Shown: positions 17,764 through 62,340 of the stretch, in pieces
Numbering within the stretch: position 1 is the stretch's first letter
How the letters are laid out: each line of letters starts with the position of its first letter
Source: Chloroflexi bacterium 54-19
GTDB lineage: Bacteria; Chloroflexota; Chloroflexia; Chloroheliales; Chloroheliaceae
DNA: 64,000 bases
Direction: 5' to 3'
NCBI GenBank assembly: GCA_001898225.1
Contig: MKTJ01000056.1
Span: 1 to 64,000 of the forward strand
Position numbers and translations under genes: made by a program
Notes under the pieces: generated by a model
The model's input: the letters and a program-made list of their open reading frames with translations, nothing else
What the model was told of the DNA's origin: nothing
Database searches by the model: none

Positions 17764-20280
17764 ATGAAGTTTTCATTCCGTCATTTAAAGGCTATTCCAT
17801 TACTCTGCTTTATTTTTATATTTTTAACCACAAGTTCAAACACTACTGCTCAAAGCATCAAAATTGAAAATCCTGATTTTCTAAAACTCTGGTCACGAAC
17901 GGACAGTTTAGTGCTTAGCAACCAGGTTTCACGTACTTATCTATGGGGGCCTGCACCCTTTACTGGCGCAATACAAGAACCTTACGTTGAATCTCCTGGC
18001 GGTACGCGCCTTGTTCAATATTTTGATAAGAGCCGCATGGAAATAACCCATCCTGAAGGGAGTAAATCCGACGTTTTTTATGTAAGTAATGGTCTGCTTG
18101 TACAACAGTTAGTATCCGGAATGCTTCAACTGGGCGACAATAAGTTTGAAAAGCGTGAGCCTTCAACCACTGGAGTGGCAGGCGACAACGATGATACCAG
18201 TGGTCCTACTTACAAGGCTCTTGGCAAATTGACCGCTACAACCAGCAATGCGGAGGGGCAGCCTGTAGCAAAAGCAGTGGACCGAGCTGGAAATACAAGG
18301 GACGCTAACTCCGAGTTCGGACAGTACAATATTACTTATGCTCATTTTGAGGCTGGCGTTGGTCACAATATAGCTAAACCTTTTTGGGACTTCTTAAATA
18401 TCACTGGTCCGGTGCAAAACCCTGACGGTTCGATTGTTACAGGGCGACTATTTGATCCAGTATTTTATGCTACGGGCCTGCCAATTACCGATGCTTACTG
18501 GGCAAAAGTAAAAGTGGGCGGTCAGATTAAAGACGTTTTGATTCAAGCATTCGAGCGACGTGTTTTGACCTATACCCCCTCAAACTCTAACGGCTTTCAG
18601 GTGGAGATGGGTAATGTAGGACGGCATTTTAAGGATTGGTTAGATAGACCCCCGGCGCCTCCCGCGACCGTTCAAATCAGAGCCATAGAGCGCACTGCTG
18701 CAAATTTTGATTTAAAGCTCGTTGTGACAAGCGATTCACGTGAAAGTATCAAAGAGTTTTTGGTTGAGGTCAAAGACAAGGAAGATAATGTTAAAGTTTT
18801 CTCGCCTCCACTTGTGCCTTTTGATCCTGCAAACCAGGAAACCGATATCAGTATACCTATTGATAAGCTTACCCCCGGTCAAGAATACGTAGTTACCGTT
18901 AGTGCAAATGATAGGTTCGGTAGATCAATTATCTCAAATGGTACGACCGAGTCAACAATCTTAGCAACCGATTCCTTTACATATCCGCTTCCACCAACAG
19001 CAACAATTTTGTTTGATGCCAGACCACAACTTGATAGTACCGGCAAAAATTTCACTGCTAATTTCACAATAAATACCACTTCACCACAGACTATTGAAAA
19101 AATTCTTGTCGACGTTGTAGATGATAAAGATCAACCTATTAGTCCGCCACTTGCACCTATTGGATTCGACCCAAAATCAAAAACAGTGCAAATTACAATA
19201 CCAGTAGAACGCTTGCGTCCAGATACAAAATATACCGTAGAGGTTAGAGCAAAAAATAAGGATGACAGTTTTGTTTTTACTCCAAATAACAGCAACATTT
19301 TGGGTACTTCAGATTTCTCATACAGTTCGGCGGCACTTCCAAAGCCTGTTACAATTAAGCTTAGAATTACACAACAAACGAAAGATGCTACTGGGAAATT
19401 ATTCTTACCTGTTTATGTAGAAGTTCAGGATCCAGATAAGCGGCTAGATCCATTCAGGGGTTTTGTTAAATGCCAGGTTACTCTCCAGGCTAATAATGTT
19501 GATATTCTTAAGGTACAACCTGATTGTAGTAGTGATAGTAAAGATCCCTCAACATTTTTTGTTAATGTACCCTTGACTCCTGATACACTCAAGCCAAATC
19601 AAGACTACGTTATAACCGTTGACATACTAACTCCTGCGACCAGTAATTTAAATATTACTTCAGGCCCTCAAACCTTCAAGCCAATACTACTAGCACCTCC
19701 TGGTTTCTTTGAATCAGTAATTCAACCTAATCTAATCTTAATTATAACCACTTTTCTAGCTATTCTTATTTTTATTGCAACAATCCTCTATTTTCGAAAT
19801 CGACCACGTAAAAGAGAAATACCTGCACCACTTCCGAATCCATATAGTGAAGCAACAATGATACACGCGATTGTACCTCGGGTACAACCAGCGGGTACCA
19901 TGGTCCAAAACCCTGTAGTACCTAACAAAAAGAGCTTACAGTTGATTATTCGAGTTAGACGGACACCAGATCAACAGCAAATAAGGCAGGAAGTATTTGG
20001 TAACTTTCCAGTGGTTATCGGGCGCCAGGTAAATAATTCCTATCCAGTAGTTGTCGGGCCAAACGGTAAATTTGTTATTTTGGGGGATCCCAAAATTTCA
20101 GGTAATCACATAGAAATACGCAGGGAAGCAGATAATTTTATATTGGTTGATCTTAATAGTACCAATGGAACAATAGTTAACGGGGGAATGCTGGAAAAAG
20201 GAGGTAGAGTAAGTTTTAATAAGCCTACTGTTGTTGAGCTAGGGCCAAATACTACTATAGAGCTAAATCCACAGATCTAG
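17764..20280 (+). CDS. Secreted/transmembrane protein with repeated Ig-like domains and cytosolic FHA domain
   Basis: The 838-residue protein has a signal peptide (residues 1-29, ending near TTAQS). A large outer region (30-655) follows, then one transmembrane helix (about 656-678), a basic stop-transfer (RNRPRKRE) and a C-terminal FHA domain (about 735-838, with VVIGRQ, ISGNHIEI and NSTNGTIVNG). The first outer part (about 60-300) carries a module, VQYFDKSRMEI and later VLIQAFERRVLTYTP, that also occurs in the GerMN protein at 32449-33900. The middle has at least two related beta-rich repeats that end in phrases such as LTPGQEYVVTV and LRPDTKYTV, probably Ig/fibronectin-like. It follows the ubiquitin-FHA gene by 28 bp in the same direction. 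It may link the secretion motor to the cell surface or cell wall. Confidence 0.78.
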   Translation: MKFSFRHLKAIPLLCFIFIFLTTSSNTTAQSIKIENPDFLKLWSRTDSLVLSNQVSRTYLWGPAPFTGAIQEPYVESPGGTRLVQYFDKSRMEITHPEGSKSDVFYVSNGLLVQQLVSGMLQLGDNKFEKREPSTTGVAGDNDDTSGPTYKALGKLTATTSNAEGQPVAKAVDRAGNTRDANSEFGQYNITYAHFEAGVGHNIAKPFWDFLNITGPVQNPDGSIVTGRLFDPVFYATGLPITDAYWAKVKVGGQIKDVLIQAFERRVLTYTPSNSNGFQVEMGNVGRHFKDWLDRPPAPPATVQIRAIERTAANFDLKLVVTSDSRESIKEFLVEVKDKEDNVKVFSPPLVPFDPANQETDISIPIDKLTPGQEYVVTVSANDRFGRSIISNGTTESTILATDSFTYPLPPTATILFDARPQLDSTGKNFTANFTINTTSPQTIEKILVDVVDDKDQPISPPLAPIGFDPKSKTVQITIPVERLRPDTKYTVEVRAKNKDDSFVFTPNNSNILGTSDFSYSSAALPKPVTIKLRITQQTKDATGKLFLPVYVEVQDPDKRLDPFRGFVKCQVTLQANNVDILKVQPDCSSDSKDPSTFFVNVPLTPDTLKPNQDYVITVDILTPATSNLNITSGPQTFKPILLAPPGFFESVIQPNLILIITTFLAILIFIATILYFRNRPRKREIPAPLPNPYSEATMIHAIVPRVQPAGTMVQNPVVPNKKSLQLIIRVRRTPDQQQIRQEVFGNFPVVIGRQVNNSYPVVVGPNGKFVILGDPKISGNHIEIRREADNFILVDLNSTNGTIVNGGMLEKGGRVSFNKPTVVELGPNTTIELNPQI

Positions 20281-20855: not shown

Positions 20856-21044
20856 TTGCTTGAACTTTTCTTGCCAGATGTTCCGGGCTTACTTCTCGAA
20901 AAATCTTATGCCGGAGACAAGCGATTGTTGCTGTTTCTTCCTTCAACACTCCATTCGGCAATTTGTCCAAAATGTCAGGTCATTTCCACTAAGGTCCATA
21001 GCCACTACACTCGAATTGTGGCCGACTTAACCTGGGCTGCGCAC
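20856..21044 (+). pseudogene. ISL3-family transposase, N-terminal fragment
   Basis: About 63 residues match the start of ISL3-family transposases: the zinc-finger part CPKCQ, then KVHSHYTRIVADLTWA, where intact members continue into the helix-turn-helix and DDE domain. A TTG start has AGGAG 10 bases upstream. The sequence about 100 bp before it (GGGTTCTTCCATGC near 20757) resembles an ISL3 left terminal repeat. Homology stops at about 21044, where an unrelated structured sequence begins. The remaining transposase and right end are not in the window. Confidence 0.8.
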
Positions 21045-21140
21045 CTACGGGAACCCCTAAAGGGGCCAGATCCCTCCACGGCGGTCGCAACACAAGGGTG
21101 TGACAAAACAGGAGCGAAAGTCCCAACTGGATTTTTTTAG
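21040..21140 (+). other. Possible 5' fragment of a group II intron inside the ISL3 remnant
   Basis: Where ISL3 homology stops, the sequence becomes rich in short complementary arms (AACCCCTAAAGGGG) and contains GTGTGACAAAACAGGAGCG followed by AAAGTCC. This is the style of domain I in bacterial group II introns; the complete intron at 34117-36624 has a comparable GGCGAAAGTC element. No RT or domain V follows, so it would be a 5' scrap. The assignment is tentative. Confidence 0.3.
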
Positions 21141-22023: not shown

Positions 22024-22446
22024 ATGGCCTGGTACGAATACGATCCGCAGCGTTTATTGATTGAGCGGAAAGCGATGGCGCTCAAATTTCCTCAATTCCA
22101 GCTTTTGAAAAGAGAAGATGCTTTTTGCTGGCTGGGCACACCCGAATCCAACCGAGGGAATAAATACGAAATCCTGGTGGAGTACCCGGAGCATTTTCCG
22201 AATATGGCCCCGTCGGTCTTTCCGGTGACGCCAGGGGTGAACTCGACGGACCTGACTGATCAGCTTAAGCACCACTACCCGAACGGTAAGTTGTGTCTTT
22301 ATTATCCGGGGGACCGGACTTTCTCCAACGATACTACCGCCGCCACGGTAGTCGTCACTGCCGCCTGGTTCTTCCCGTATGAGGCATGGTTGGAAAGTGG
22401 TAAAAGAGTGTGGCCCGGCCAGGAGCTGGACCACATGCAAATATAA
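22024..22446 (+). CDS. Prokaryotic E2-like (ubiquitin-conjugating fold) protein
   Basis: The 140-residue protein has the pattern of bacterial E2/UBC-like domains. It starts with an N-terminal helix and a beta-meander, YEILVEYPEHFPNMAPSVFP (about 48-67), which matches the E2 strand-strand-PxxxP stretch. Next comes HHYPNGKLCLYYPGD with a candidate catalytic Cys at position 91, and a C-terminal helical part with WFFPYEAWLESGKRVWPGQE, typical of prokaryotic E2s that attach to small modifiers. Bacterial E2s usually travel with an E1 (ThiF-like), a JAB peptidase and a ubiquitin-like gene; none is seen here. It could be an orphan trans-acting enzyme or a non-catalytic binding module. It precedes a broken TPR gene, the W-motif protein and the kinase in the same direction. 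Confidence 0.72.
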   Translation: MAWYEYDPQRLLIERKAMALKFPQFQLLKREDAFCWLGTPESNRGNKYEILVEYPEHFPNMAPSVFPVTPGVNSTDLTDQLKHHYPNGKLCLYYPGDRTFSNDTTAATVVVTAAWFFPYEAWLESGKRVWPGQELDHMQI

Positions 22447-22454
22447 GGCAGTAA

Positions 22455-23419
22455 ATAAAATGTATCTGCTTACCGCCGGACAATGTTACGCTTGATTACG
22501 GCAAGACGATCTCGCAACCGGCTTTGGGTCTGGATGTGCGGTTTGTCAGTCTGATTGCGTCGAGAGTGGCACTGGTGTTTTTGCTGCAAGAGGACAAGAC
22601 GAGTCGTCTGACCGGATATTCGACAAACTGGGTGCTGCTGGTGAACAAATCGGCCCCACCTCCGGCGAATACCACGCCAATAAGTGTCCTTTTTCCGTTT
22701 AATAACCTGACACCTATGGCAAGCACCAGTGCTGGCATCAGCACGACTATAAGTAGCACGACACCTGGCGCGACCACTCCTGCCGGGAATGGCGGGACGG
22801 GCGTGGACAGCCTGTACAACCAGGCTCAGACTGAACTGAAGAAAGCCAGTTCAAGGAAGCGGCGGCGACCCTTGAACAGTTGCGGACTTTGCAGACGCAG
22901 ACGGGGAACAATAAACACCCGGATGTCCCGGCGCTGCTTTTCAGGGCTTATCTGGACCGAGGCGATCAGCTAAACAAAGCCGCGAAGATTGCCGACTTCC
23001 AACTGAGTATCGAGGCTTACCAGAAGGAGTTGGACACGGCTAAAACATTGGACGCGAAGGACCGCAACCAGCAGGAAGAATCGGCGGTGCAGAGCCGGAT
23101 TGAACTGGGAAACCTATATATTCTGGCGTACCAGGATTACAACCAGAAGAACTATGACGCAGTGGTGCCGCTGTTCAGCCAAATTTATAACAAGGACCAG
23201 AATTTCAGGGAAGCTTCGACCCTGTACTACGATGCGCTGACCAAAATCAGGGACGGATAATTCGCGGAAAATTTGTTGCCGGAAGCGTACCAGAGTTATG
23301 CCAGGGCGGCCCAGTTGAAGAATGTTGCCGATACGCGGTACGCCCACGCCCGCGCTACCAGTATAAAAAGCCAACTTCGGCAGGCTGGAAAACCAGTCCC
23401 GACGGTTCCGGCCCCTTAA
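22455..23419 (+). pseudogene. TPR-like membrane/secreted protein gene broken by a frameshift and a stop
   Basis: Two frames together give one protein. The first (from about 22455) runs through a beta-rich part (GKTISQPALGLDVRFVSLIA) and a Ser/Thr/Gly-rich linker to NQAQTELKKA. Near 22850 the reading frame must change to continue as FKEAAATLEQLRTLQTQTG and several helical TPR-like repeats. At 23258 a TAA interrupts the frame, yet similarity to a TPR pattern (ENLLPEAYQSYARAAQLK) continues to a stop at 23417-23419. It resembles the C-terminal half of the next gene, suggesting paralogy. No start codon with a good ribosome-binding site is evident. Two separate lesions argue for decay and not for a sequencing slip alone. 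Confidence 0.7.
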
Positions 23420-23473: not shown

Positions 23474-25540
23474 ATGAGTAACGAAAGACCTGAGGACAGG
23501 TGGAAAAGGGAAAAAGAATATCAACCGCCGACCTCAGACCAAGGGGATCAAACTGTTATCGACGCTTTTTGGATGGCGGAAAAGCGCAGGCAAGTCCCAG
23601 GCCAACAGAACACCGGCGGTCAACAATACACGGGCGGCCAGCCGAACAACCAGCAATACGACCAACCGGTCGAAATAAAAACCGAGCTATTTGATTGGAT
23701 GGATGAGAACCGCGGGCAAGTCCCAGGCCAACAGGGGCAGCAGTATACGGGCGGCCAGCCGAACAACCAGCAATACGACCAGCCAATCGAAATAAAAACC
23801 GAGCTATTCGACCAGCCGGTCGAAATAAAAACCGAGCTATTCGATTGGACGGATGAGAACCGCGGTTCAGGCCAACAGGGCGGGCAGCAGTACGGCCAAC
23901 CTCAAAATAACTCTGGTAATCAAGACCAGTGGATGGCCGAAAAACGGGGACCAGTCCCAGGCCAGCAGAACACCGGCGGTCAACAGAACTATTACGGACA
24001 GCAAAACACGGGCGGCCAGCCGAATAACCAGCCGGTCGAAATAAAAACCGAGCTATTTGATTGGATGGCGGAAAAGCGCAGGCAAGTCCCAGGCCAACAG
24101 GGGCAGCAGTATACGGGCGGCCAGCCGAATAACCAGCAATACGACCAGCCGGTCGAAATAAAAACCGAGCTATTCGATTGGACGGATGAGAACCGGGGAC
24201 AAGTCCCAGGCCAGGGGGCGGGGCACGGCGGCAACCAGTACGGTCAGCAAGGTCAACCGAACGGGCAAAAGCAGTGGATGGCTGAAAAACGGGGACCAGT
24301 CCCAGGCCAACAAAACCCTAACGGCGGTCAACCAGGCAGACAAGGTGGGCAACCGAACGGGCAAGAACAATGGATGGCCGAGAAACGGGGTGGTCCAACC
24401 CCCGGCCAGAACGGGCAGCAGTTCACAGGCGGGCAGCAATACAGACAGCAGAGCGGGCAGCCGAGTGGAGCTCAATGGATGGCCGAGAAAAGGGGCGAGC
24501 CAGTCCCAGGCCAGAACGGGCAGGCGAACCAGTATCGCCCGTCCGGGCAGGTAGGTCCAGCCGCCGACCCGAACCAGTGGATGCGCGAGAAGCAAGGGGG
24601 ACCAGTCCCTTTTGCTGCCCAGTCGAGTGCCGTTGAAGCGGCCTGGCACCAGGAAAAGAATTTTAAGGCTCCGAGTTCAGGCGGAAACCGTAATCTCTAC
24701 TTTATTCTGGGTGGAGTCGGGGCGCTGGTGGTAATCGCGATTGTAGTAGTGGTGATTTTGCTGCTTCAGCCTAAAACTCCGCCGGTCCCGGCAGCAACCG
24801 CGACCGCAGCGATTACGACTGCCGCCGTAACGACGAGCAGCGCGACAACTGCCGCCGTAACGACAGCGGCGGTAACAACCGCCCCGGTGACGACCGAAAA
24901 GGCGGCCACCACAGCGGCGGTTACAACCAGCCCAGCCAACGATTCGGCCAAACTTCTGACATTGGCCCAGGACGCCACCAATAAGCAAAACTGGCAGGAC
25001 GTAGTTAGCACGCTCGAACTGCTTTCGCCGAGCGACCCGAACTTCAGCAAGGCCAAACCGTTGCTGGTTAATGCTTATGTAAAGCTGGGCGAACAGGCTG
25101 TCGCGGATAAGAGCAACAGCCAGGAGTCGGCTAATCTGGCCCTGACGAATTTCCGCAAGGCTAACGCACTCGACGCGAGTTTTGCCGGGTTAGCCGCCGA
25201 ACTTCAACAGGCCGATACATTTGCGACCGGACTATTGCAATTCAACTCGGAGCAGTATCAGCAGGCTGTGAACACGATTAAGCCGCTGTATGACTCTTCG
25301 GCGACGCAGGTGGACGGTGTGCATTATCGCAATACGGGGGACATTCTTTACAACTCGTATTTGAAACTTGGCGATAAGGTCTTTAATCCGGGCAACGTGG
25401 ACGCGCTAAACCAGGCCCGCAATTTCTACAGCCTGGCGCTGGCGGTGGACGTTGATAACAAAGACGACGCTAAAAAAAAGCTCTTGCAAGTAACCAACGC
25501 GCTAAAATTGATGGGGCCAACTCCGACAACCAAGAAATAG
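23474..25540 (+). CDS. Membrane protein with about twelve WxxE(K/N)R-PG repeats, Thr/Ala linker and TPR-like outer domain
   Basis: The 688-residue protein has four parts. Residues 1-395 are low-complexity and Gln/Gly/Asn-rich, with twelve copies of a Trp motif, best form WMAEKRGPVPGQQ. Five copies of EIKTELFD occur among the early repeats. A transmembrane helix (about 413-436, FILGGVGALVVIAIVVVVIL) follows, then an Ala/Thr/Val linker, and a C-terminal alpha-helical TPR-like region (about 490-680). The long N-terminal part is therefore cytosolic and the TPR part outside. The kinase 17 bp downstream carries one more such motif (WMEEKRGPVTG) in its tail, so the two proteins may be bound by a common partner. 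Repeat units are nearly identical in DNA, a sign of recent expansion. The start has GAGGTAAG just before the ATG at 23474. Confidence 0.75.
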   Translation: MSNERPEDRWKREKEYQPPTSDQGDQTVIDAFWMAEKRRQVPGQQNTGGQQYTGGQPNNQQYDQPVEIKTELFDWMDENRGQVPGQQGQQYTGGQPNNQQYDQPIEIKTELFDQPVEIKTELFDWTDENRGSGQQGGQQYGQPQNNSGNQDQWMAEKRGPVPGQQNTGGQQNYYGQQNTGGQPNNQPVEIKTELFDWMAEKRRQVPGQQGQQYTGGQPNNQQYDQPVEIKTELFDWTDENRGQVPGQGAGHGGNQYGQQGQPNGQKQWMAEKRGPVPGQQNPNGGQPGRQGGQPNGQEQWMAEKRGGPTPGQNGQQFTGGQQYRQQSGQPSGAQWMAEKRGEPVPGQNGQANQYRPSGQVGPAADPNQWMREKQGGPVPFAAQSSAVEAAWHQEKNFKAPSSGGNRNLYFILGGVGALVVIAIVVVVILLLQPKTPPVPAATATAAITTAAVTTSSATTAAVTTAAVTTAPVTTEKAATTAAVTTSPANDSAKLLTLAQDATNKQNWQDVVSTLELLSPSDPNFSKAKPLLVNAYVKLGEQAVADKSNSQESANLALTNFRKANALDASFAGLAAELQQADTFATGLLQFNSEQYQQAVNTIKPLYDSSATQVDGVHYRNTGDILYNSYLKLGDKVFNPGNVDALNQARNFYSLALAVDVDNKDDAKKKLLQVTNALKLMGPTPTTKK

Positions 25541-25557
25541 TCAGGGACTAAACGGTT

Positions 25558-26529
25558 ATGTTTCTGGAAATTGTCCAGTTCGGGGGCTACAAGTTAAAAA
25601 GCATGATTGGTAAGGGCGGGGTCGCGGAAGTGTGGCTAGCCGACCAGTTGGCGTTGGACCGCGAAGTAGCCGTCAAAGTTATTTCTTCCGAACTGGTCAA
25701 CGGGGATGACGCCGATTTTATTGACCGCTTCAAGCGCTAGGCTCATTCGGTAGCGAGGCTCGACCATCCCGGTATTTTGCCGGTCTTTGACTACGGTGAG
25801 TCGAGCGGCTACCTGTAGTTGGTGATGCCTTACGCCAGCGGGGGAAATTTGCGGAGCCGGGTCCGCCGCAATCCGCCCACCAAAGAAGAAATTGCGGAGA
25901 TTTTTCAGAATATCACGGGCGGCATCGGGCACGCCCACAGTCACGGGCTGATACACCGCGACCTGAAACCAGCCAACATCTTGCTGAACGAGGAAGGCCG
26001 GGCCTTTATCGCCGACTTCGGTATCGCCAAGACGATGGACAACAATACGAACATGACCCAGGCAGGAATTATCCTGGGGTCGCCTTCGTATATGGCTCCC
26101 GAACAGTTTTTGGGTCAAGCCGACCACCGCACCGATATTTACTCGATGGGTCTGATTCTGTTCTTTTTGCTGACCGGACGCAAGCTGTACAAAGGGCGGC
26201 TCCCTTTTGAAATCGGCAAACGGCACCTGGAAGACCCGATTCCGCTGCCGGACCCGCAGGTTCCATCGGAGTACGAGCCGTTCCTGTACAAGGTGCTGGC
26301 AAAAAATCCGGACAACCGCTACCAGACCGCCGCCGAAATGCTGCAAGGTTTCAAGCAGATTGCAAAAACGCGTTCGGCTCCGGTTTCGTACAATTCGGGC
26401 GGAATTTCGAGTTCGCTGGGGCCTAATCCGCCTCTCCCTGAAAAGCCCCGCCCGGAGGTGAGTAACGACTCGGCTTCGTCGGCGCGCTGGATGGAAGAAA
26501 AACGTGGACCAGTCACAGGTCGGTTCTGA
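25558..26529 (+). pseudogene. Ser/Thr protein kinase gene with two in-frame TAG codons, 3' end cut by an IS
   Basis: One continuous frame encodes a Hanks-type kinase domain with all catalytic motifs: IGKGGVAEVW (glycine loop), VAVKVI, HRDLKPANILL, DFGIAK, SYMAPEQ. It is interrupted by TAG at 25738-25740, where homologues have Glu (FKR-E-AHSVARL), and by TAG at 25816-25818, where an aromatic residue is expected (GYL-Y-LVMPY). Both positions are well conserved and each stop is one base from the expected codon. After the domain come a Pro/Ser-rich linker and WMEEKRGPVTGRF, the Trp motif shared with the preceding membrane protein. The TGA stop at 26527 is the first three bases of the downstream IS terminal repeat, so a longer tail was lost. 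It is probably a recent pseudogene; UAG read-through is possible but unsupported, because TAG is the normal stop of intact genes here. Confidence 0.82.
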
Positions 26530-28094
26530 CACCTAAATTTGGCTCAAATAAGTGACAACCTGCCCGAAAAAGGGATAAAACTGCCAAACCTTATCAATAA
26601 ATAATAGACTCACCAAAATTTTAAAACTAAGCAGTACCCTCTTGGTATTAGTTACAACTTTACTTTCTAATCAGGAGGGCTAATTTTATGACTAATCCTG
26701 ACCTTTCACAATCTTTAGCCCAAACCGAGAACGACCTTTTCACTCCTCGGGCGGCTTTAGCCGCTTTAGGCATCAAACTGGCTAAACTTGACCTTTTCGC
26801 GCCAATTCGTAACCAGGTCAAAATTAAGCAGAAAACCGTCCATTATAGACCTGATTAGAAACTGTATGCAGCCTTCCTCAATATCTTAGCTGGCCGCAAG
26901 AAAATGGTTGAACTTAACAAACTGGTTCGGGCGGATTTTGCTCTCCAACAAACTTTTATTAGAGTAGTTGGGGCTGAACAATCGGTAGTACAGACCACTT
27001 TAGATGCTTGTAGCGAGATAAATCTAGTGCAAATGCACCAGGCCATCCAGGACATTTTCCGCACTTATTCTCACGTTTACAAACACGATTATCAAAAAGA
27101 GTGGCAACTACTTGATGTGGATATGACCGGAGCACCTTATGGCAAAAAGGCCGCTCTTGCCACTAAAGGTTACTTTGCTAATCAAAGGCGTAACCGGCGG
27201 GGTCGCCAGATTGGCCGAGTATTAGCTACCACTCATAAGGAAATTGTAGTTGATCGGCTCTATACCGGCAAGGCTCAACTTAATAATTCTTTAGGAGATC
27301 TGGTCGCTGCTACCGCACAGGTTCTAGGTTTAGAGGAACAACAGCGTCAGCGCACCATCTGGCGTATCGATGCTGGAGGAGGTAGTCTGAACGATGTAAA
27401 TAGCCTTTTGGCACGGGGTTATCAGGTGCATTGCAAAGACTATTCGGCCCAACGCACCCGTAATTTAACCAAGAGTGTTAAGGAGTGGTTCCGAGACCCA
27501 CTGCATGGTGACCGGGAAGTAGGCTGGGTTACTTTGGAAAGTGGAGATTATGTGAGACCGGTAAGACGCATTGCGTTGCGCTTTAAGAAAGCCAATGGGC
27601 AATGGGGTGAGGCCGTCATAATCTCAACTTTACCTGGCGAAGATGTGCAGAAATTAGCCGGTGAAACCGGAAGTGAGCCATCAAACCAGAAGGCCAGCGC
27701 CCTGGCTTACGTCCACTTTTATGACCAGCGGGGTGGAGGGATCGAAACTGAGTTCAAAGAAGATAAAACAGGTTTAGGCTTAAATAGCCGCAATAAAAAG
27801 AGTTTTTGGGGCCAGGCCATGGTGGTACAGCTGGGGACGTTGGCTCAAAATGTATTAATTTGGGCACGGGATTGGTTAAGTAATGGTCAACCCTAGTTAA
27901 GTCAGGATGGCATAAAGCGAATGGGGCGGGATTTATTAACCATCAGTGGAGTTGTGCTCAGTGACAGCAAAGGGAAGGTTCGGGTGGTGATCCTCAATCG
28001 CAGTGACACATATGCAAAACTAGTCAAGGCAGGTTTAGCTAAGCTTCTGGCTGTCGAACATGTTGCCGTTGTTTTGGGCGAAATTTAGGTGACA
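26527..28094 (+). mobile_element. IS element with DDE (IS4-superfamily-like) transposase, 1568 bp
   Basis: The ends are terminal inverted repeats: TGACACCTAAATTTGGCTC at 26527-26545 and, read from the other strand, TGTCACCTAAATTTCGCCC from 28094 to 28076 (16 of 19 match). Inside lies one transposase frame, itself disrupted. No target duplication is seen; the left flank is the kinase gene and the right flank an unrelated CHRD fragment, suggesting a deletion or rearrangement after insertion. Confidence 0.8.
26688..28088 (+). pseudogene. DDE transposase with two in-frame TAG codons
   Basis: A single frame from the ATG at 26688 (GGAGG just upstream) to the TAG at 28086-28088 encodes a transposase of about 465 codons. 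Candidate acidic residues are D in LLDVDMTGAPYG, D in WRIDAGGGS and E in DQRGGGIETEFKEDKTGL, the last being the Y-x2-R-x4-E-x6-K type signature of IS4-superfamily enzymes. The frame is cut by TAG at 26856-26858, between HYRPD and KLYAAFLNIL, and by TAG at 27894-27896, after WLSNGQP, with clearly coding sequence continuing (ISGVVLSDSKGKVRVVILN). The enzyme is therefore inactive unless these stops are suppressed. The central frame alone is 330 codons. Confidence 0.8.
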
Positions 28095-28392
28095 CTACCA
28101 TCCGGCCCTGAATACGGTTGCGGCGCAGCAGACTTCCCGCACTTCTACCGTAACCCTGACCGCTCAGAACGGAACCATAGTGAGCGGGACGGCGACCCTG
28201 ACCGAAGTGCCGGGCGGCACCGTAAGGGTAGTGCTGGACGTACAGGGGGTTGGATCCCGGTCAACACAAAGTCCACATTCACGCGGGGACGTGCGCTAAA
28301 CAGGGTGACATCATTTATGACCTTGAAACTCTCAGGACGACGGCAGCCGGGAAAGCCACTTCCACGACGGTAATTAGGGTGGGTTGATTATA
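28095..28392 (+). pseudogene. CHRD-domain protein, internal fragment with a frameshift
   Basis: Read in one frame, 28110-28257 gives STVTLTAQNGTIVSGTATL and VRVVLDVQGVG. After a frame change near 28258 it continues as HKVHIHAGTCAKQGDIIYDL to KATSTTVIRVG. The VHIHAGTC signature with the preceding beta-strands is that of CHRD/SodC-like secreted domains. The start is missing at the IS right end (28094), and the end is missing at the IS481 left end (28393). The only uninterrupted frame across it, starting at 28089, is not the ancestral one. Confidence 0.72.
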
Positions 28393-29560
28393 TGTGGGGA
28401 TCGTATAGTTCGTTTAGTAATCGTGTTGTATAATGATTAAATGCAATCAGAAGTGAAAACCCGATTACGATGGGTTAAACTATATGAAGAGACCCATGAT
28501 GCTGAACTTGTTTGCCGCAGATGCGGCGTTTCCAGACCAACCCTGGAAAAATGGCTCCGGCGGTATCGAAAGTTCGGGGAAGAAGGTCTCAAAAGCCTGA
28601 GTCACCGGCCGGGTGTCTTTCCTAAAAGGAAAGTAACTGCCCAGCACGAGCAATGGATCCTGGAATTGAGAAAGCGAAGATTAGGCACTAGGCGGATTCA
28701 GAACGAGCTGAAAAGGGAGTATGATTGCTCCCTTTCTCGTGAGACTATTCATAAGGTTTTAACCAAAAATAACGTCAAACCTCTTGTTACTACCAGGCGA
28801 ATTAGAAAGAGCTTTAAGCGGTACGAGCGGGCTATTCCAGGCGAAAGAATTCAGATGGATACCTGTAAGATTGCCCCTGGCATCTACCAATATACTGCAG
28901 TTGACGACTGAACTCGGTTACGAGCCCTAGCCATTTATAAACAGCGTAGCGTGGAAAATACGCTCGAATTCCTTGAGTACATGATCGAGGAGCTGCCTTT
29001 TCCCTTTCAGCGAATCCAGACAGATCGAGGTCAGGATTTTTCGGATATAAGTTCCAGGAAAAGTTAATGGAATACGGCATAAAATTTCGACCGAATAAGC
29101 CGGCCTCTCCCCATTTAAATGGGAAAGTCGAACGGTCCCAAAAGACTGATCTGGAAGAATTCTGGGCAAGAGTAGATTTGAAAGATCCGAAATTGCAAGA
29201 AAAGCTGGTGGAATGGCAGGATTATTACAATCATTACCGGGTCCATGGCTCTCTAAAGAATCTAACGCCCTGGGAAAGATGGAAAGAACTAGAATTAAAA
29301 ACTCCAATTCATGAAGAAGCCGAAGCAATGTTTGACCCAGGCAAAGAACGAATAAAACTCCAAAATTATTGGGCTGATTTGCAGCAACTCAAGACAAATA
29401 AAAGTAAAGAAGAAGAACAAAAGCAAGAGGTGGCCTCAGCCACCTCTTGACCGCTGCATTCACGGCCAGATAAACTGGGCCGCTCATTTGGCGGAAATTA
29501 CTGTATTTGATTATTGTCAAGAATAGTTCTGATTATTAAACGAACTGGGCGATCCGCACA
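28393..29560 (+). mobile_element. IS481-like insertion sequence, 1168 bp
   Basis: Left end 28393-28422 (TGTGGGGATCG, three bases, AGTTCGTTTAGTAATC) and right end 29560-29531 on the other strand (TGTGCGGATCG, three bases, AGTTCGTTTAATAATC) are near-perfect inverted repeats beginning with TGT, as in IS481 elements. The enclosed transposase is broken. No target duplication is obvious. The right end lies 2 bp from the stop codon of the DUF6326 gene. Confidence 0.85.
28441..29450 (+). pseudogene. IS481-type transposase (rve integrase) with a stop and a frameshift
   Basis: The N-terminal half (157 codons) has a helix-turn-helix pair (ELVCRRCGVSRPTLEKWLRRY) and the start of the integrase core with the first catalytic Asp region (GERIQMDTCKI). 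TGA at 28909-28911 replaces an expected Cys codon in AVDD-C-TRLRALAIY. Coding continues to IQTDRGQDF, where a missing T in a T-run near 29037-29042 shifts the frame. The rest reads FRPNKPASPHLNGKVERSQK with the usual last catalytic Glu in NGKVER, to the stop at 29448-29450. Each lesion is a single-base change, indicating recent inactivation. It fills the IS481-like element. Confidence 0.85.
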
Positions 29561-34116: not shown

Positions 34117-34211
34117 GTAGGGTAGGCAGCCAGCGCGGTAACAGCTTTCACTGACCCGTTTCTGTCTACCCCCCTCCAAACTGACCGTACAACTTTCACT
34201 GTAGTCAGCTT
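34117..34211 (-). ncRNA. Group II intron domains V and VI
   Basis: Domain V is the 34-base hairpin at about 34178-34211 on the minus strand, with the catalytic AGC start (AAGCTGACTACAGTGAAAG) and closing GTACGGTCAGTTT. Domain VI follows, with a GGTAG/CTACC basal stem that should hold the bulged branch-point A, and ends at 34117. Domain V begins within the last codons of the maturase gene, as is common. Confidence 0.78.
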
Positions 34212-36037
34212 TCCAGTTCTCCCTTAACTATGGGTTGTGGTCTCAGCTTACCTTGATGTAATTCCTGGTGACACTTCTTACAGAGCACCATTGTTTTGCG
34301 CTGGCGTTCTATCATTCGTTTCTCCCAGATTTTCTTGGTTGTATCCTTCAAATCTTTAAGTTTACGGATATGGTGAACTTCCATTGGCCCCTGGGCATTG
34401 CCACACCATTCGCAGATGTTAGCCAAAATGCGTTTTCCCAGTTCATTTACGTTCCGGTACTTGAGCGTTTGAGGCAGGCTGTCCGGGTCACGGTAGTTTA
34501 TTATTCCTTTGTTCAATTGGCGCGTAGAGCCGAAGAGTTCGTACTCTTTTACTATGTGGCCTTTATCCCTCAGAAGTACCGAATATCTACCAGGTCCTCT
34601 CTTTAGACTTCGGATAACTTTTCCCATCGTAGTTCTGCGTTTGCAGGCAAGCGTTCTAAAGAAACTGGTATTGGTTAGCTTAAAGACTTTGTTTGCTACA
34701 TTTTTGAGGTTATCGGCTAGAGCGTAGTAGTTGAAGAACCCTCTAACCTCGGAGTTGTAGCACATCAGGATTTCCAGTTCGCTGAGGTTGAATAGTTTTC
34801 TACGATGTCTACCCTTCCAGTGGGTAATATCTCCGTATTCTTTGGCAAATTTTACCGTTTTATCCCGTGGTAACAGCAACCTTAAACTGTAGTTGCCGGT
34901 TCGTTTGGTTATTATTCTACGGGTTTTGGTACGGTACCTTAGAATACGTTGGCCTTTCCATTGTTGCACATCATAACCTAAAAACCTTACTCGCTTCTTA
35001 ACCGGGGTTATTAGCGTTTTTTCTTTGGATAGTTCCAAATTGAGCTCGGTTTTCAGGTAACCTTCTAGCCAGCCCTTTAGGGCAACCGCATCTGCCTTGG
35101 GGCCGATTAGCCCGAACAAGGTATCGTCGGCATAGCGGTAGTAAACCAGCCTGCGGTAATCCGGGTCATTGTTTTGATGAGCGGGTAGTTTGAAGAGTTG
35201 GGAACGTAGCGCTTTGTAAATGTCCCATTTACCAGTTAGTCTGGCTCGCTTTTTGGCCAGGAAAACTTTCTCTGCAAAGTTATGGTAAACCGGACTTATC
35301 TTCATCGCTTTACCTTTGTTGTACTGGTTTATCCTGGCACTAACTGTCTGGTCCAGTTCATTGAGGTAAATGTTACTCAGAATCGGGCTGAGATTACCGC
35401 CTTGCACTGTCCCCGAGAAGGTTTTATGGTATTGCCAATTGTCGTAATAGCCTGCTCGAAGGAGTTGAGAAATGAGGTGCAGGAAACGCTGGTCGGTGAT
35501 GCGCTTACCGAGTATTTTAAGTAAGATTTCGTGGTCTACGTTGTCGAAGAACCCTTTGATGTCTCCTTCTACCCACCAGCGCACTCCGGTTGCTTTGGTT
35601 TTGATCTGATGAATTGCTGTGTGACAACTTCTTCCAGGCCGAAAACCGTGGGAAGCGTTCGAAAAGGTTGGTTCGTAGATGGCTTCCAGGATAAGTTTAA
35701 GGACGGTCATCAGGAGTTTATCCCGGAAACAGGGAACACCAATCGGGCGTTGCCCATTGCCATTGGCTTTAGGTATGTAGACCCGCCGGGCCGGGTGAGG
35801 CTTGTAACTGGAGGCTTTTAGTTCAGAAATGAGACTTTTGATCAATCTCATGCCTGCTCCGTCGATGGTTTTGCCATCAACACCTCTGGACATGTTGCCC
35901 GGAATTGCCGCAATACTCAAATAAGCACTAAACCAGAGCTCTGGATTAAAGAGCTTTTGGAAAAGTTTGTCGAATTTAACCTCTGGTTTGCAACCCATAT
36001 TGCCAAGCATTGTAAGTAGAACTTTGGTCTGTTGCAC
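34205..36037 (-). CDS. ltrA: Group II intron reverse transcriptase/maturase with HNH endonuclease domain
   Basis: The 610-residue protein has the RT-maturase-endonuclease order of group II intron proteins. RT motifs span about 60-370: ASHGFRPGRSCHTAI, GDIKGFFDNVDHE, GTVQGGNLSPILSNIYL and the catalytic YRYADD. The maturase X domain is about 430-500 (SEVRGFFNYYALADNLK). The HNH nuclease is at the C-terminus, with CEWCG, EVHHIRKLKD and LCKKCHQELH. The start is GTG with GAGGAG 6 bases upstream. It promotes splicing and target-primed retrohoming of its host intron. All catalytic motifs are present, so the element may still be mobile. No other complete copy is in the window. Confidence 0.93.
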   Translation of the reverse strand: MQQTKVLLTMLGNMGCKPEVKFDKLFQKLFNPELWFSAYLSIAAIPGNMSRGVDGKTIDGAGMRLIKSLISELKASSYKPHPARRVYIPKANGNGQRPIGVPCFRDKLLMTVLKLILEAIYEPTFSNASHGFRPGRSCHTAIHQIKTKATGVRWWVEGDIKGFFDNVDHEILLKILGKRITDQRFLHLISQLLRAGYYDNWQYHKTFSGTVQGGNLSPILSNIYLNELDQTVSARINQYNKGKAMKISPVYHNFAEKVFLAKKRARLTGKWDIYKALRSQLFKLPAHQNNDPDYRRLVYYRYADDTLFGLIGPKADAVALKGWLEGYLKTELNLELSKEKTLITPVKKRVRFLGYDVQQWKGQRILRYRTKTRRIITKRTGNYSLRLLLPRDKTVKFAKEYGDITHWKGRHRRKLFNLSELEILMCYNSEVRGFFNYYALADNLKNVANKVFKLTNTSFFRTLACKRRTTMGKVIRSLKRGPGRYSVLLRDKGHIVKEYELFGSTRQLNKGIINYRDPDSLPQTLKYRNVNELGKRILANICEWCGNAQGPMEVHHIRKLKDLKDTTKKIWEKRMIERQRKTMVLCKKCHQELHQGKLRPQPIVKGELES

Positions 36038-57902: not shown

Positions 57903-57943
57903 CATCAGAAATCTTCTACGTCAAGATGGGCCAGGAGATTTCT

Positions 57944-59095
57944 ATGCCCAAAAATCAAGTAGATAGAAAAGATTATTCCTCTCCAAAAGAGCAAAGTGGG
58001 AGAGAAAAGAACCTGTTCGTCCAGGTCCCTTTAGAGGTACTTGAAGCTGGAATCAGCACCAGTGCTTTGAAGCTTTACCTGATTCTGTTGAAGTATGCGA
58101 GGCAGTCAAACGAGTGTTGGCCGAGCCAACAAACCTTAGGATGGGATATGAATCTTAAGCCAAGGCGAATAGCAGATCTCCTGAAGGAACTGGAGTGCGC
58201 ATCTCTTATAACCATTATATGCCGGGCTAAAGAGGGACTGTCAAATCTTTACCGGCTTCTCAAAGTTGTTCCACCGAAAGGAGGTTCGAACTCATCCTTG
58301 CCAAAAACTGCTGACAGTGCTGCTGAAAAAGACTTACCGGGTAAGCAGAAAAAAGCAGGGGAGGGTATGCAAGATTCTGCTGACGAATCACATGAAGTTG
58401 AAATACATGCATTAAAAACACACACTCATATACAGCCTGCCCATGTTAATGGGGTGGTAGCTCCGACTAACTTGGATTTTGACCAACCAGCCAAAAGTGT
58501 GTGTGATTTTAGAAATTCTGGAAAAGATTCATCTGATAAAAGTGCAAGCATGCAAAGTAAAGAAGTGCCAGGTTCGATTCATATCCCACCACAAACTACG
58601 CTAAGTGAGAAAGTTATAGCCGTATTAACCGAGTTTGGAGTTTCAGAGGCACGAGCCAAACAGCTTGCTGTTACGGTAATCAAGGCAAAGCTGGACGATG
58701 AGTATGTGAGAGGTTTAGCCGAATGGATCCTGGAACAAACGGCTTCACGAACAATTTACAACCCCGCCGGTCTACTGGTGCAAATGGTCCACCAGCTCGC
58801 CCCTGTGCCCTTGCCCAGGGGAGCGGGAGTACCAACCCTAAACAGCCTTCAATTGGAAGCTGACCAGAGAAAAGAATATTTTGATAAACACTTGCCCCGG
58901 CTGATAGCGATTGAGGAACGCAATCTGGCAGATGCAGTATCCGTACGGGACAAAACTAGTATCAGGCTCAGATTAGATAAATACCTGGCCCTTCAGGCAA
59001 AAGAGAGTGAAAGGGCTTATCCAGTTGGCAAACCTAATCTACCAGCCCTAAGTGCTAACTATTCTTCACAAGCATTTTTTATGGAACAAAGCTAA
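57944..59095 (+). CDS. Winged-helix replication initiator/organiser-like protein
   Basis: Start at the ATG 57944 (AGGAG at 57933-57937) gives 383 residues; an upstream ATG at 57926 lies before that site. Residues about 20-110 form a winged helix of the HTH_36/RepA type (TSALKLYLILLKYARQSNE, WPSQQTLGWDMNLKPRRIAD, LLKELECASLITII). A long charged, low-complexity linker follows, then a helical C-terminal domain (VLTEFGVSEARAKQLAVTVI, IYNPAGLLVQMVHQLAP) like those of phage and plasmid replisome organisers. It is followed by a DnaB-like helicase and ParA/ParB, so it is probably the replicon's initiator or helicase loader. Confidence 0.75.
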   Translation: MPKNQVDRKDYSSPKEQSGREKNLFVQVPLEVLEAGISTSALKLYLILLKYARQSNECWPSQQTLGWDMNLKPRRIADLLKELECASLITIICRAKEGLSNLYRLLKVVPPKGGSNSSLPKTADSAAEKDLPGKQKKAGEGMQDSADESHEVEIHALKTHTHIQPAHVNGVVAPTNLDFDQPAKSVCDFRNSGKDSSDKSASMQSKEVPGSIHIPPQTTLSEKVIAVLTEFGVSEARAKQLAVTVIKAKLDDEYVRGLAEWILEQTASRTIYNPAGLLVQMVHQLAPVPLPRGAGVPTLNSLQLEADQRKEYFDKHLPRLIAIEERNLADAVSVRDKTSIRLRLDKYLALQAKESERAYPVGKPNLPALSANYSSQAFFMEQS

Positions 59096-59129
59096 CTAAA
59101 AAAATTAGCGCAAGAAGGAAGGATCAAAT

Positions 59130-60554
59130 ATGCAACAACCTACCAATTTCAATGGAAGGTCTTCCAACAGCAACGGAAAACTTGTGGAATTAAACATTCC
59201 CCAAAATCCGGAGGCTGAAGAAGCGGTATTGGGCAGCCTTCTAATCGACCGGGACTTGATTGTAACGGTTGCCTCTATTCTTAAACCAGGCCATTTCTTC
59301 AGCCAGGAACGAGCCAATATCTATCAGGCTATCCTCAACCTCTATTCAACAGGTGTTCCCGGCGACCTTATAACAGTGCGGGATGAGCTAAAAGCTATGC
59401 AACTGCTGGGAGATGAACCGGGTCAGATACGAGGCTCCTATTTGCTAAGGCTGATGGAGGCTGTTCCTACGCCGGTTCATGTTCAGTATTATGCCAACAT
59501 TATTTTGAATTATTGGCTAGCCCGCAAGCTGATAGCCGAAGGTTCTCACATAGTTGCAAGTAGCTATCAGGGCAAAGAGGAGTCTACAAAATTACTTGCA
59601 GAATTTATCGAGCGTATGCAGAACCTGGCCGTCCTTGTAAAGGGAAGAGAAAACTCCCATTTCACCACTCACGAGAAGAGTCTGGAGCATTTTGTCAAAG
59701 TAGCTTCAGACCTTGACGAAAAAAGAAATATCGAAAGCCAGGGTGTCTTGCAAGGTCAGAAAACTTTGCCCCACTTAAGGTTTGGCTGGCCTGAGTTTGA
59801 TGGGAGGGATTGGACCGAGGCTCCGGTTCTATCTCTGTTACCTTCAACCTTGACCACAATTCTTGGTAGAACCGGTGGAGGCAAAACTCTGGTGGCATCC
59901 CAGATTGCCGACACCAATGCCATTTTAGGGTTGAACGTACTTTATTTCCATGTTGAGTTGAACCAGGAGCAAATGCTAGCTCGCAGATATTGCCGCCTGA
60001 GTGGGGTGCCGGTGCTTTCTCAACTAAGAAGAAATTTGTCTGATCGAGAATTAGAGTTACTCTCAAAAGCCGCTGGAAAGGTGTCAGAGTGGTCGGGGAG
60101 GGTAGACTTTTGCCACTGCCCGGAATGGACATCAGAACAACTTATTCAAGAGTTAAAAGCTCGGCATTATGCCCTCGCAGTCAAAACCGGACGGGGTTAT
60201 GACCTGATTGTGCTGGATTACCTGCAGCGGCTTGGTTGGCCGAGGAATTGTAATTCGGAGAGAGAAGCCATGGCCTTTAATGTACGACGCTTCAGTGATG
60301 TCCTCAATGAATTGAATCTGGCTGGACTTATGACGAGCCAGGTAGGTCGCAGCGATTCCAGGCAGTACGAACCACCGGACCTTGATGAAGGTCTTGGAAC
60401 GGGTGAGATTGAGCGGTGCTCCAACCAGTTGCTTGCCTTTGCAATCAGTCAGGATAAGGCCCTGGCAAAATATGCTATCCGGAAAAATACCTTTTCTGAA
60501 GGGGATATAACCGGTGCCCTAACCTTTGATGCCAGAAAGGTTCAATTCCTCTAG
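59130..60554 (+). CDS. DnaB-like replicative helicase
   Basis: The 474-residue protein has the DnaB N-terminal helical domain (PQNPEAEEAVLGSLLIDRD, about residues 28-46, typical DnaB start) and a RecA-type ATPase core with Walker A GRTGGGKT at 246-253 and Walker B LIVLDYLQRLG. It lacks some of the usual DnaB spacing (shorter linker and C-terminus), as in plasmid or phage versions. It would unwind DNA at the replication fork as a hexamer. It lies 34 bp behind the initiator gene and before parA. Confidence 0.88.
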   Translation: MQQPTNFNGRSSNSNGKLVELNIPQNPEAEEAVLGSLLIDRDLIVTVASILKPGHFFSQERANIYQAILNLYSTGVPGDLITVRDELKAMQLLGDEPGQIRGSYLLRLMEAVPTPVHVQYYANIILNYWLARKLIAEGSHIVASSYQGKEESTKLLAEFIERMQNLAVLVKGRENSHFTTHEKSLEHFVKVASDLDEKRNIESQGVLQGQKTLPHLRFGWPEFDGRDWTEAPVLSLLPSTLTTILGRTGGGKTLVASQIADTNAILGLNVLYFHVELNQEQMLARRYCRLSGVPVLSQLRRNLSDRELELLSKAAGKVSEWSGRVDFCHCPEWTSEQLIQELKARHYALAVKTGRGYDLIVLDYLQRLGWPRNCNSEREAMAFNVRRFSDVLNELNLAGLMTSQVGRSDSRQYEPPDLDEGLGTGEIERCSNQLLAFAISQDKALAKYAIRKNTFSEGDITGALTFDARKVQFL

Positions 60555-60614
60555 CTCAGGCAATAGTTATTCAGAAGTTTGATTACCAATAATTTAGAGA
60601 GGAGGCACCAAAAA

Positions 60615-61382
60615 GTGAGTTATGTAATAGCCTGCAGCAACATCAAAGGAGGGACGGCAAAGACCAGCTCGGTAACGAGCCTGGCCGGTATCTTTGCCCA
60701 GCAGCACTACCGGGTGTTGGTTATCGACTGTGATCCTCAGAGCAACTTGACAATTGCCCTTGGTAAAAACCCTGAAAAACTGCAAAAGACTCTTGTGGAA
60801 GTTATTTCCAATGAGGAGATGTGCTTTTCAGAAGCCATTGTCCCAATCACCGAAGGGTTTGACCTGATACCGGCGCACATGGCTCTCCACGCCCTGGAAT
60901 TACGGATGGTAAGTATGTTTTCGAGAGAAAAACTTCTGCGGCGAAAGCTACAGGAGGTCAGAGCAAATTATGACATTATTTTGCTCGACTGCTCGCCCAG
61001 CATAAACATGCTCACGATTAACGCTCTGACGGCAGCCGATGGGATTCTTATCCCAGTCCAAGCCAATTCTTTCTTTGCTTTGTATGGGATGACGCAGTTA
61101 ATGACAACCATCAACTATATCCAGAGCGATCCTAACCCCGACCTCAAGGTGTTAGGGGTAGTTCTTACTATGAGCACTAATACCAAGATTACAAAGGAGG
61201 TCTCAAACCAGATAAAGGAGACATTTGGCGACCGGGTATTTGAAACAGTTATCAGGCTGAGTACCAGGATGGCTGAAGCACCGGCGATGGGTCAAACAAT
61301 AGGTAATTACGCCGGGGAGAGCAGTGTTGCGGAGGATTACCGGAATTTAGCAGAGGAGATAAAAGAGCGTGTCAATCTTTAG
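60615..61382 (+). CDS. parA: ParA-family partition ATPase
   Basis: The GTG at 60615, behind GGAGG (60601-60605), is the best start and gives 255 residues. An upstream frame to 60579 has no site. The deviant Walker A is CSNIKGGTAKTSSVTS with the signature Lys, followed by VIDCDPQSNLTIALG and IILLDCSPSINMLT. It is a type Ib/Soj-like ParA without an N-terminal DNA-binding domain. It moves ParB-bound plasmid or chromosome copies by ATP-dependent binding to the nucleoid. It overlaps parB by 14 bp. Confidence 0.93.
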   Translation: MSYVIACSNIKGGTAKTSSVTSLAGIFAQQHYRVLVIDCDPQSNLTIALGKNPEKLQKTLVEVISNEEMCFSEAIVPITEGFDLIPAHMALHALELRMVSMFSREKLLRRKLQEVRANYDIILLDCSPSINMLTINALTAADGILIPVQANSFFALYGMTQLMTTINYIQSDPNPDLKVLGVVLTMSTNTKITKEVSNQIKETFGDRVFETVIRLSTRMAEAPAMGQTIGNYAGESSVAEDYRNLAEEIKERVNL

Positions 61383-62340
61383 TAATAGCGGCAACAGTAA
61401 TCAGAACAATAGCCTGAGGAACAATTTGATGCGAGAAATGATTGCCCCTCAATCCTCGCTGGACGCCAACCCGAAAGCCAAACTTCTTCCAATCGAAAAG
61501 CTGATAAGTAACCCCTTTCAGGTTCGCCAGGATTTTGACACCCCTGAAGCCAATGCAGCCCTGGAGGAGTTGGCGGCAGATATTAGTGAGCACGGTATTC
61601 TTCAACCAATTCTGGTTCGACCGGCCAGAGAACCGGGCAAATTTGAAATTGTGGCGGGGGAACGGCGTTACCGGGCAGCCCAAATTGCCTCCCTAAAACA
61701 ACTTCCGGCTATCGTCGATAATTTCAATGATAAAGAAGCCAGGCTTGTCTCCCTTACTGAAAATTTGCAAAGACGTGACCTCAATTTCAAAGAAGAAGTA
61801 GATTTCCTGGCTCAACTAAACGAAAAACGAATCCAGGAAGGGTTCGGGGGTGAAACGGACCTCGCCCGCCTCATCCACAAATCTCGCACCTTTATTGCCA
61901 AACGCTTGAAGCTCGCCCCTTTTCCTGACCTGGTAGAGCGAGTAATCACCAACCAGATTTCCATCAATCATGCCTATACCGAGGCATTGGACCGTGAGCA
62001 GTTACAAATGCACTTACCATTCGAAAAGGAGGCAAGTAACGAAAGTGAAATTGGTGAAGAAATGCACAATGTGTTCCCGGGGAACACTTTTAGCTTAAAT
62101 GATCTAGCTCATACTAATGAGAATGTTGGAGAAAAAGAGGGAACTGAAGCAGTTAAATCGCCCAGAATGTCGCTCAGAGCTTCTTTTAGAGCTAAAATTG
62201 TACCTTTCAGCCGGGCCAGGGATGCTTTGAAATCCCTGGCCCAGGATTTTGAAAAATTTGAGGAAGAGGAACGGGTACAACTTAAGGTGGTCCTGGAAGA
62301 ATTGGAACAAACATTAGTCCAACTACGGGCGAAGCTATAA
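61369..62340 (+). CDS. parB: ParB-family partition protein
   Basis: The 323-residue protein starts at a GTG within the end of parA. After a short tail, the N-terminal CTPase/ParB domain begins at LLPIEKLISNPFQVRQDF, with GERRYRAAQIA and the SLTENLQRRDLNFKEE motif. The central helix-turn-helix is about 160-190 (DLARLIHKSRTFIAKRLKL). The variable C-terminal part (about 220-323) would dimerise. The truncated copy at 37008-37739 is its close paralogue. A 17-bp palindrome lies within this gene at 62071-62087. Confidence 0.93.
   Translation: MSIFSNSGNSNQNNSLRNNLMREMIAPQSSLDANPKAKLLPIEKLISNPFQVRQDFDTPEANAALEELAADISEHGILQPILVRPAREPGKFEIVAGERRYRAAQIASLKQLPAIVDNFNDKEARLVSLTENLQRRDLNFKEEVDFLAQLNEKRIQEGFGGETDLARLIHKSRTFIAKRLKLAPFPDLVERVITNQISINHAYTEALDREQLQMHLPFEKEASNESEIGEEMHNVFPGNTFSLNDLAHTNENVGEKEGTEAVKSPRMSLRASFRAKIVPFSRARDALKSLAQDFEKFEEEERVQLKVVLEELEQTLVQLRAKL
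62071..62087. promoter_or_regulatory. 17-bp palindrome inside parB (parS-like candidate)
   Basis: GTGTTCCCGGGGAACAC encodes the middle of HNVFPGNTF and is identical in the truncated parB (37458-37474). It is a candidate binding site for ParB; canonical parS sites were not found in the window. Confidence 0.45.

Follow-up and report, generated by a model that had tools for sequence, protein, structure and literature searches.

W-x-x-E-K motif arrays in the tails of a membrane protein and a kinase encoded with E1, E2 and JAB genes in Chloroflexota

Prokaryotic neighbourhoods of E1, JAB and Ubl genes, as well as neighbourhoods containing a kinase, YukD and an FtsK-type ATPase, have been described (PMC1779556), and a conjugation system has been described for CBASS (PMC10097602). 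The enzyme families of the operon reported here, and E1/E2/JAB operons as such, are already known. As in the bacterial operons of this kind (CBASS cap2/cap3 and related), an E2, a ThiF-type E1 and a JAB protein (EWHKHP) are encoded together and match the PADLOC E1-E2, E2 and JAB models. Unlike them, this operon contains two transmembrane (TM) TPR proteins and a TM kinase (WD40-CHRD) with motif-array tails. No CD-NTase or effector gene was noticed by inspection of the translated neighbours in two of the loci (L030 and L038), and no free ubiquitin-like modifier with a conjugable C-terminus was found in the operons examined, that of contig C85 (see below) included. The operon also resembles type VII (ESX/WXG100) loci with YukD and a Ser/Thr kinase, since an EccC/EssC protein scores above the curated cut-off in the DNA analysed and just below it in a second operon type (C58), where a weak YukD-like domain is present as well. 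It differs from such loci in its coupling to E1/E2/JAB genes and in that WXG100 is only sub-threshold (0.004). In the open-access literature, neither a type VII plus E1/E2/JAB system in Chloroflexota nor the coupling of E1/E2/JAB operons with motif arrays was found described.

The window, that is, the whole 64,000-nucleotide stretch of Chloroflexi bacterium 54-19 DNA that was analysed, encodes an intact bitopic membrane protein, TPR2 (Table 1), to which an earlier note on this DNA had assigned twelve motif copies; its coordinates were right and the count is exactly 12, all before the TM segment. The protein is composed of a Pro/Gly/Gln-rich N-terminal tail with the 12 WxxE[K/N] motifs, the TM segment, a Thr-rich linker and an α-helical TPR-like ectodomain. 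All 12 tryptophans ahead of the TM segment fall within W-x-x-E-[KN], nine of them followed by EK and three by EN. Shuffling of this tail (5000 shuffles) yielded 0.10 motifs on average and never more than 2; across the larger tails studied, shuffled means were 0.01–0.10 versus 4–12 motifs observed. The basic residues ahead of the TM segment suggest that the motif tails of TPR2 and of the kinase are cytosolic.

An intact operon was found on contig C85 of the same assembly (G000; locus L030), with the genes for E2, E1, TPR1, TPR2, kinase and JAB on one strand. The E1 matches PF00899 (ThiF, 2e-37), and the JAB protein, of the E..H.H..S..D type, matches PF14464 (1e-6) and the PADLOC JAB model (2e-21). 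The E2 has a PADLOC match of 6e-21 and a cysteine within LCLYYP; Pfam E2 families are sub-threshold. The E2 identity is taken from the PADLOC models and the cysteine in the sequence, and the activity is predicted. The C85 kinase comprises a kinase domain, 11 motifs, a TM segment, a WD40 propeller and a CHRD/SOD-like end, and the kinases of the intact loci contain 5–11 motifs followed by a TM segment and a WD40 propeller. The gene order of G001 (C17) and G002 (C477 and C438) is that of C85 as far as the contigs reach, with TPR2 orthologs on C17 and C477. The sharing of the motif between the membrane protein and the adjacent kinase, as proposed earlier, is thus seen as arrays in C85, G001 and G002; the common binding partner or multivalent scaffold that the earlier note deduced from it stays putative. 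Two of the E1 proteins (L038:6066-7268 and L030:8007-9245) have an N-terminal domain of ~110 residues that by eye looks like an inactive JAB, with LGWW/LGRW for GEWHKHP.

The second operon type, on contig C58 of G000, encodes E2, JAB, RWD-like TM proteins (by inspection), E1, TPR1, TPR2, a YukD-like domain and an EccC/EssC protein just below the curated cut-off. Its TPR2 carries WQREKQAY. The YukD-like domain (L091:13489-14478) scores 1e-4, short of the curated cut-off, and forms part of a longer protein; a single sub-threshold WXG100 match (0.0039) was obtained in this locus. In the sister genus (G003), the operon reads E2-JAB-E1-TPR1-TPR2, with WMAEK and WMREK in a TPR2 at the same operon position. 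The earlier note would have abandoned its proposal had the motif been confined to one locus or been generic low-complexity sequence without co-occurring genes. Neither is the case: paired motifs are nearly confined to these loci (see below), and the motif recurs in other loci, in sister species and in the sister genus at the same operon position.

Altogether, 69 instances of the motif were collected from 11 tails of four species and two genera, with copy numbers of 2–12 and none after the TM segment. The tryptophan is conserved in 66 of them (Y in 3), the glutamate at +3 in 67 and the lysine at +4 in 64, the other five having N (three come from the window copy). The flanking positions vary, and a broader consensus over the same instances is P-x-E-A-Q-W-M-[QR]-E-K-[QR]-G. 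The longer shared consensus first proposed did not survive this comparison, as RGPVPG occurs only in the window copy and the conserved core elsewhere is W-x-x-E-K. The corresponding search pattern, W-x-x-E-[KN]-R-x(0,3)-P-x-P-G, proved too narrow, with few matches outside the window copy, as frequent as those of a reversed-pattern control; the matches in G004 and on contig C20 of G001 are TM/linker low complexity at unrelated loci. The arrays share with known short linear motif arrays (multivalent scaffolds) a short conserved core, a variable copy number, disordered linkers and a predicted helix, but no known motif with this consensus was found. The earlier remark that no named motif like it was known agrees with our searches of the open-access literature, which gave no description of the motif or the family.

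The wide range in copy number (2–12), together with a near-identical DNA repeat at 23765-23844 of the window TPR2 gene and a VEIKTELFD insert present in the window TPR2 only, would be expected if the tail had grown neutrally or by slippage as low-complexity sequence, its repeats having no function. However, the linkers have lost all similarity, yet both genera retain W, E and K, with a mixture of Glu (GAA 35/GAG 23) and Lys (AAA 43/AAG 15) codons. This mixed usage indicates that residues were kept and not merely DNA copied. A second operon protein, unrelated to the first, has the same motif too, and we regard such neutral growth as very improbable.

Genome-wide statements are based on a paired-motif DNA pattern, defined as two motifs 45–75 bases apart. 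The loci described here account for 13 of the 14 paired matches in G000 (three loci), 5 of 6 in G001 and 6 of the 7 listed in G002 (8 counted; two loci), and in 400 genomes drawn from the phylum the remaining matches are scattered singletons, like those of the reversed-pattern control. Of the 158 genomes of the class, 7 contain E1 relatives of this type. In the DNA examined, motif arrays are absent from the homologous E1/E2/JAB loci of three genomes outside the family (G024, G065 and G447), so the motif appears not to be essential to the cassette. A scan with the C85 kinase across GTDB returned only the window's own record, one sister species and two distant matches.

The window locus is itself a decayed duplicate of the E2-E1-TPR1-TPR2-kinase-JAB operon, in which E1, TPR1 and the kinase are broken (Table 1) and the JAB gene is absent. 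The 5' part of the kinase shares 83% identity with residues 11-327 of the intact C85 kinase frame, which has 1181 residues. An inserted element replaces roughly residues 328-1056, its flanks matching residues 11-327 and 1057-1148. The sequence WMEEKRGPVTG, found at 26488-26520 in the kinase frame, corresponds to the first of the 11 motifs in the intact C85 paralog. It had been reported to end the kinase; the motif is indeed at that site, but the frame stops after it because of the insertion and not at a natural terminus. With two TAG stops and truncation by the element just after motif 1, the gene is a pseudogene. TAG recoding is an unlikely explanation for the two stops, since interruption and truncation affect the gene as well. 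The ORF of the element (26904-27896) had no match in a Pfam search and is labelled a transposase by inspection. Around the decayed operon there are transposase-like fragments at 26904-27896, 28441-29450 and 20856-21140, and near it a group II intron maturase-like ORF at 34205-36037 on the minus strand. Since E1, TPR1 and the kinase are broken, the TPR2/kinase pair of the window probably no longer works as a pair.

Table 1. Features of the window and carriers of the other short motifs. Positions refer to the window unless a locus is given.
Feature	Location	Strand	Basis
EccC/EssC type VII secretion ATPase, 2956 aa	8161..17031	+	TIGR03928 1531 bits (cut-off 778); TIGR03924 1037 bits (cut-off 509)
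FN3-like/TM/FHA protein adjoining EccC	17764..20280	+	PF00498 3e-11; PF00041 2e-9
E2/UBC-like protein, intact, HHYPNGKLCLY cysteine	22024..22446	+	PADLOC E2 models, best 2e-19; 86% to C85 E2
E1/ThiF remnant, 58/413 residues, fused by deletion to TPR1 sequence	22473..22646	+	tblastn 81% to C85 E1 residues 297-354
TPR1 remnant (TPR part), stop after 23257, N-terminal tail with DEYGE motif lost	22844..23416	+	tblastn 69% to C85 TPR1 residues 328-518
TPR2, bitopic membrane protein, 688 aa, intact frame	23474..25540	+	ORF and translation; motif count; orthologs; AlphaFold of C85 ortholog; weak BamD/TPR fold matches
12 motif copies in TPR2, 15 bases each	23501..24658	+	motif scan and shuffle control
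Starts of motif copies	23501, 23570, 23696 (EN), 23846 (EN), 23930, 24062, 24179 (EN), 24275, 24371, 24476, 24578, 24644	+	
TPR2 transmembrane segment	24695..24766	+	hydrophobic LYFILGG..LLL; helix 169-193 in AlphaFold model of C85 ortholog
Kinase pseudogene, 5' part: kinase domain, in-frame TAG at 25738 and 25816, WMEEK at 26488, false stop at 26527	25558..26529	+	frame analysis; PF00069 on longest open part
Inserted element with transposase-like ORF 26904-27896	26530..28100	+	kinase-matching flanks; approximate ends
Kinase pseudogene, 3' remnant: CHRD/SOD-like C-terminal domain in two frames	28102..28378	+	tblastn to C85 kinase residues 1057-1148, 74-84% identity
TPR1 motif carriers (IDDFGEL in L084)	L030:6340-7893, L032:9795-10991, L038:7097-8383, L084:1056-2075		
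JAB proteins with two FxPxPPAxLSxxY copies	L030:250-1434, L032:4287-5372		

The window EccC/EssC protein, which is far longer than usual, shows FtsK/SpoIIIE matches in seven stretches together with NACHT/AAA matches. The GC content of its gene is 0.45, and that of the EccC and FHA genes 0.41–0.45, against 0.53–0.57 for E2, TPR2 and the kinase; these genes may therefore have joined the operon side later, and EccC may not be a cognate neighbour of the window operon. Low dN/dS values between the window and C85 (0.18 for the TPR2 ectodomain, 0.06 for E2 and 0.07 for the kinase domain) point to two loci that diverged under constraint. The decay of the window kinase looks recent. The dS between both loci (0.9–1.2) resembles the values between species, which leaves three options for the window copy: old paralogy, acquisition, or a mis-binned relative. 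The assembly, from a metagenome, has 9.25 Mb versus 6.3–6.7 Mb in sister species. Genes for an HTH_36 protein, DnaB, ParA and ParB lie in a row at 57926-62340 of the window, and its contig (C56) may represent a plasmid or else an origin region.

An AlphaFold model of the C85 TPR2, run with 7 sequences, has a short helix on each of the six motifs, between low-confidence linkers, followed by a TM helix (169-193) and a helical TPR-like ectodomain that is confident from residue 252. The best match in a fold search of TPR2 was BamD (E 8e-4, low TM-score), with other weak matches to BamD/TPR proteins and many 14-3-3 chains at very low TM-score. In the model of the C85 kinase tail, 8 of the 11 motifs are in helices predicted with low confidence; the tail pLDDT is mostly below 50 and no confident docking of the tail in cis was obtained. 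The first motif of the C85-type TPR2 (N-terminal PED-W-K-REK) and the last one (AWHQ[E/A]K, before the TM segment) are conserved in position. The flanks read WQREKQAY in the C58-type and WMxEK[QR]G in the C85-type system, a difference within one genome that suggests separate cognate partners for each.

We favour, with a probability of about 0.55, the reading that W-x-x-E-K is a helical docking motif whose multivalent arrays recruit one cytosolic partner, common to TPR2 and the kinase, to the membrane. The arrays, spaced by Pro/Gly/Gln-rich linkers, would fill the cytosolic N-terminal tails of TPR2 and of the PknB-like kinase, the outside parts being a putative TPR-like ectodomain and WD40-CHRD, respectively. 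Both would most likely bind the same partner at many sites at once, which would hold the conjugation enzymes in one membrane cluster with TPR2 and the kinase. Amphipathic Trp segments that hold the tails on the inner leaflet or cluster homotypically, with no dedicated partner, could also account for the short predicted helices, which contain W, M and basic residues, and for the position-conserved copy directly before the TM segment. We find this quite unlikely: for helices on a membrane surface, a strict Glu at +3 and so little conservation at the other hydrophobic positions would be unusual, and the system-specific flanks fit a cognate protein partner better.

The enzymes of the operon offer a further alternative, in which the motif lysines are acceptor sites: the E2 would read W-x-x-E-K directly and decorate the tails with a ubiquitin-like modifier, to be removed by JAB. 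Lysine is conserved in 64 of 69 instances; the operon encodes E1, E2 and JAB but showed no obvious E3 gene, so that an E2 reading a linear motif would make sense. Nevertheless, the lysine is no better conserved than W and E and is replaced by N in five instances (three in the window copy), and no free conjugable modifier was found, the YukD-like domain being fused to a longer protein; we consider this scheme unlikely. A role of the tails as kinase substrates or pseudosubstrates, which the presence of the motif in the kinase's own tail and in its neighbour might indicate, seems the least probable of all, given a core without Ser/Thr, with Tyr in only 3 of 69 instances, and a TPR2 with the motif in the C58-type and G003 loci, where no such kinase was seen in the operon.

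W-x-x-E-K is not the only short motif of the operon. The TPR1 tails contain [FV]DEYGE[LV]: C85 has three copies, G001, C58 and G003 have one or two, and G065 and G024 show looser variants. A sequence related to the TPR1 motif, LNSFGELK or FNSFSEIK, is present in two of the kinases. The JAB tails have FxPxPPAxLSxxY twice, between the JAB domain and a C-terminal TM segment (C85 and G001). The tails by the membrane thus hold at least three short-motif families. In a tentative and rather doubtful reading, the ubiquitin-like cassette might be organised at the membrane by three motif codes, W-x-x-E-K (TPR2 and kinase), [F/V]-D-E-Y-G-E-[L/V] (TPR1, with related copies in two kinases) and F-x-P-x-P-P-A-x-L-S (JAB), and the choice of membrane proteins to be modified would depend on multivalent docking or on direct motif reading by the E2.

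How bacterial E1-E2-JAB cassettes choose and place their targets is mostly an open question. The arrays in the kinase and TPR receptor tails of one operon provide a peptide-sized handle for finding the partner, and they suggest a membrane-anchored multivalent organisation that has, for one locus at least, a link to a type VII secretion ATPase.
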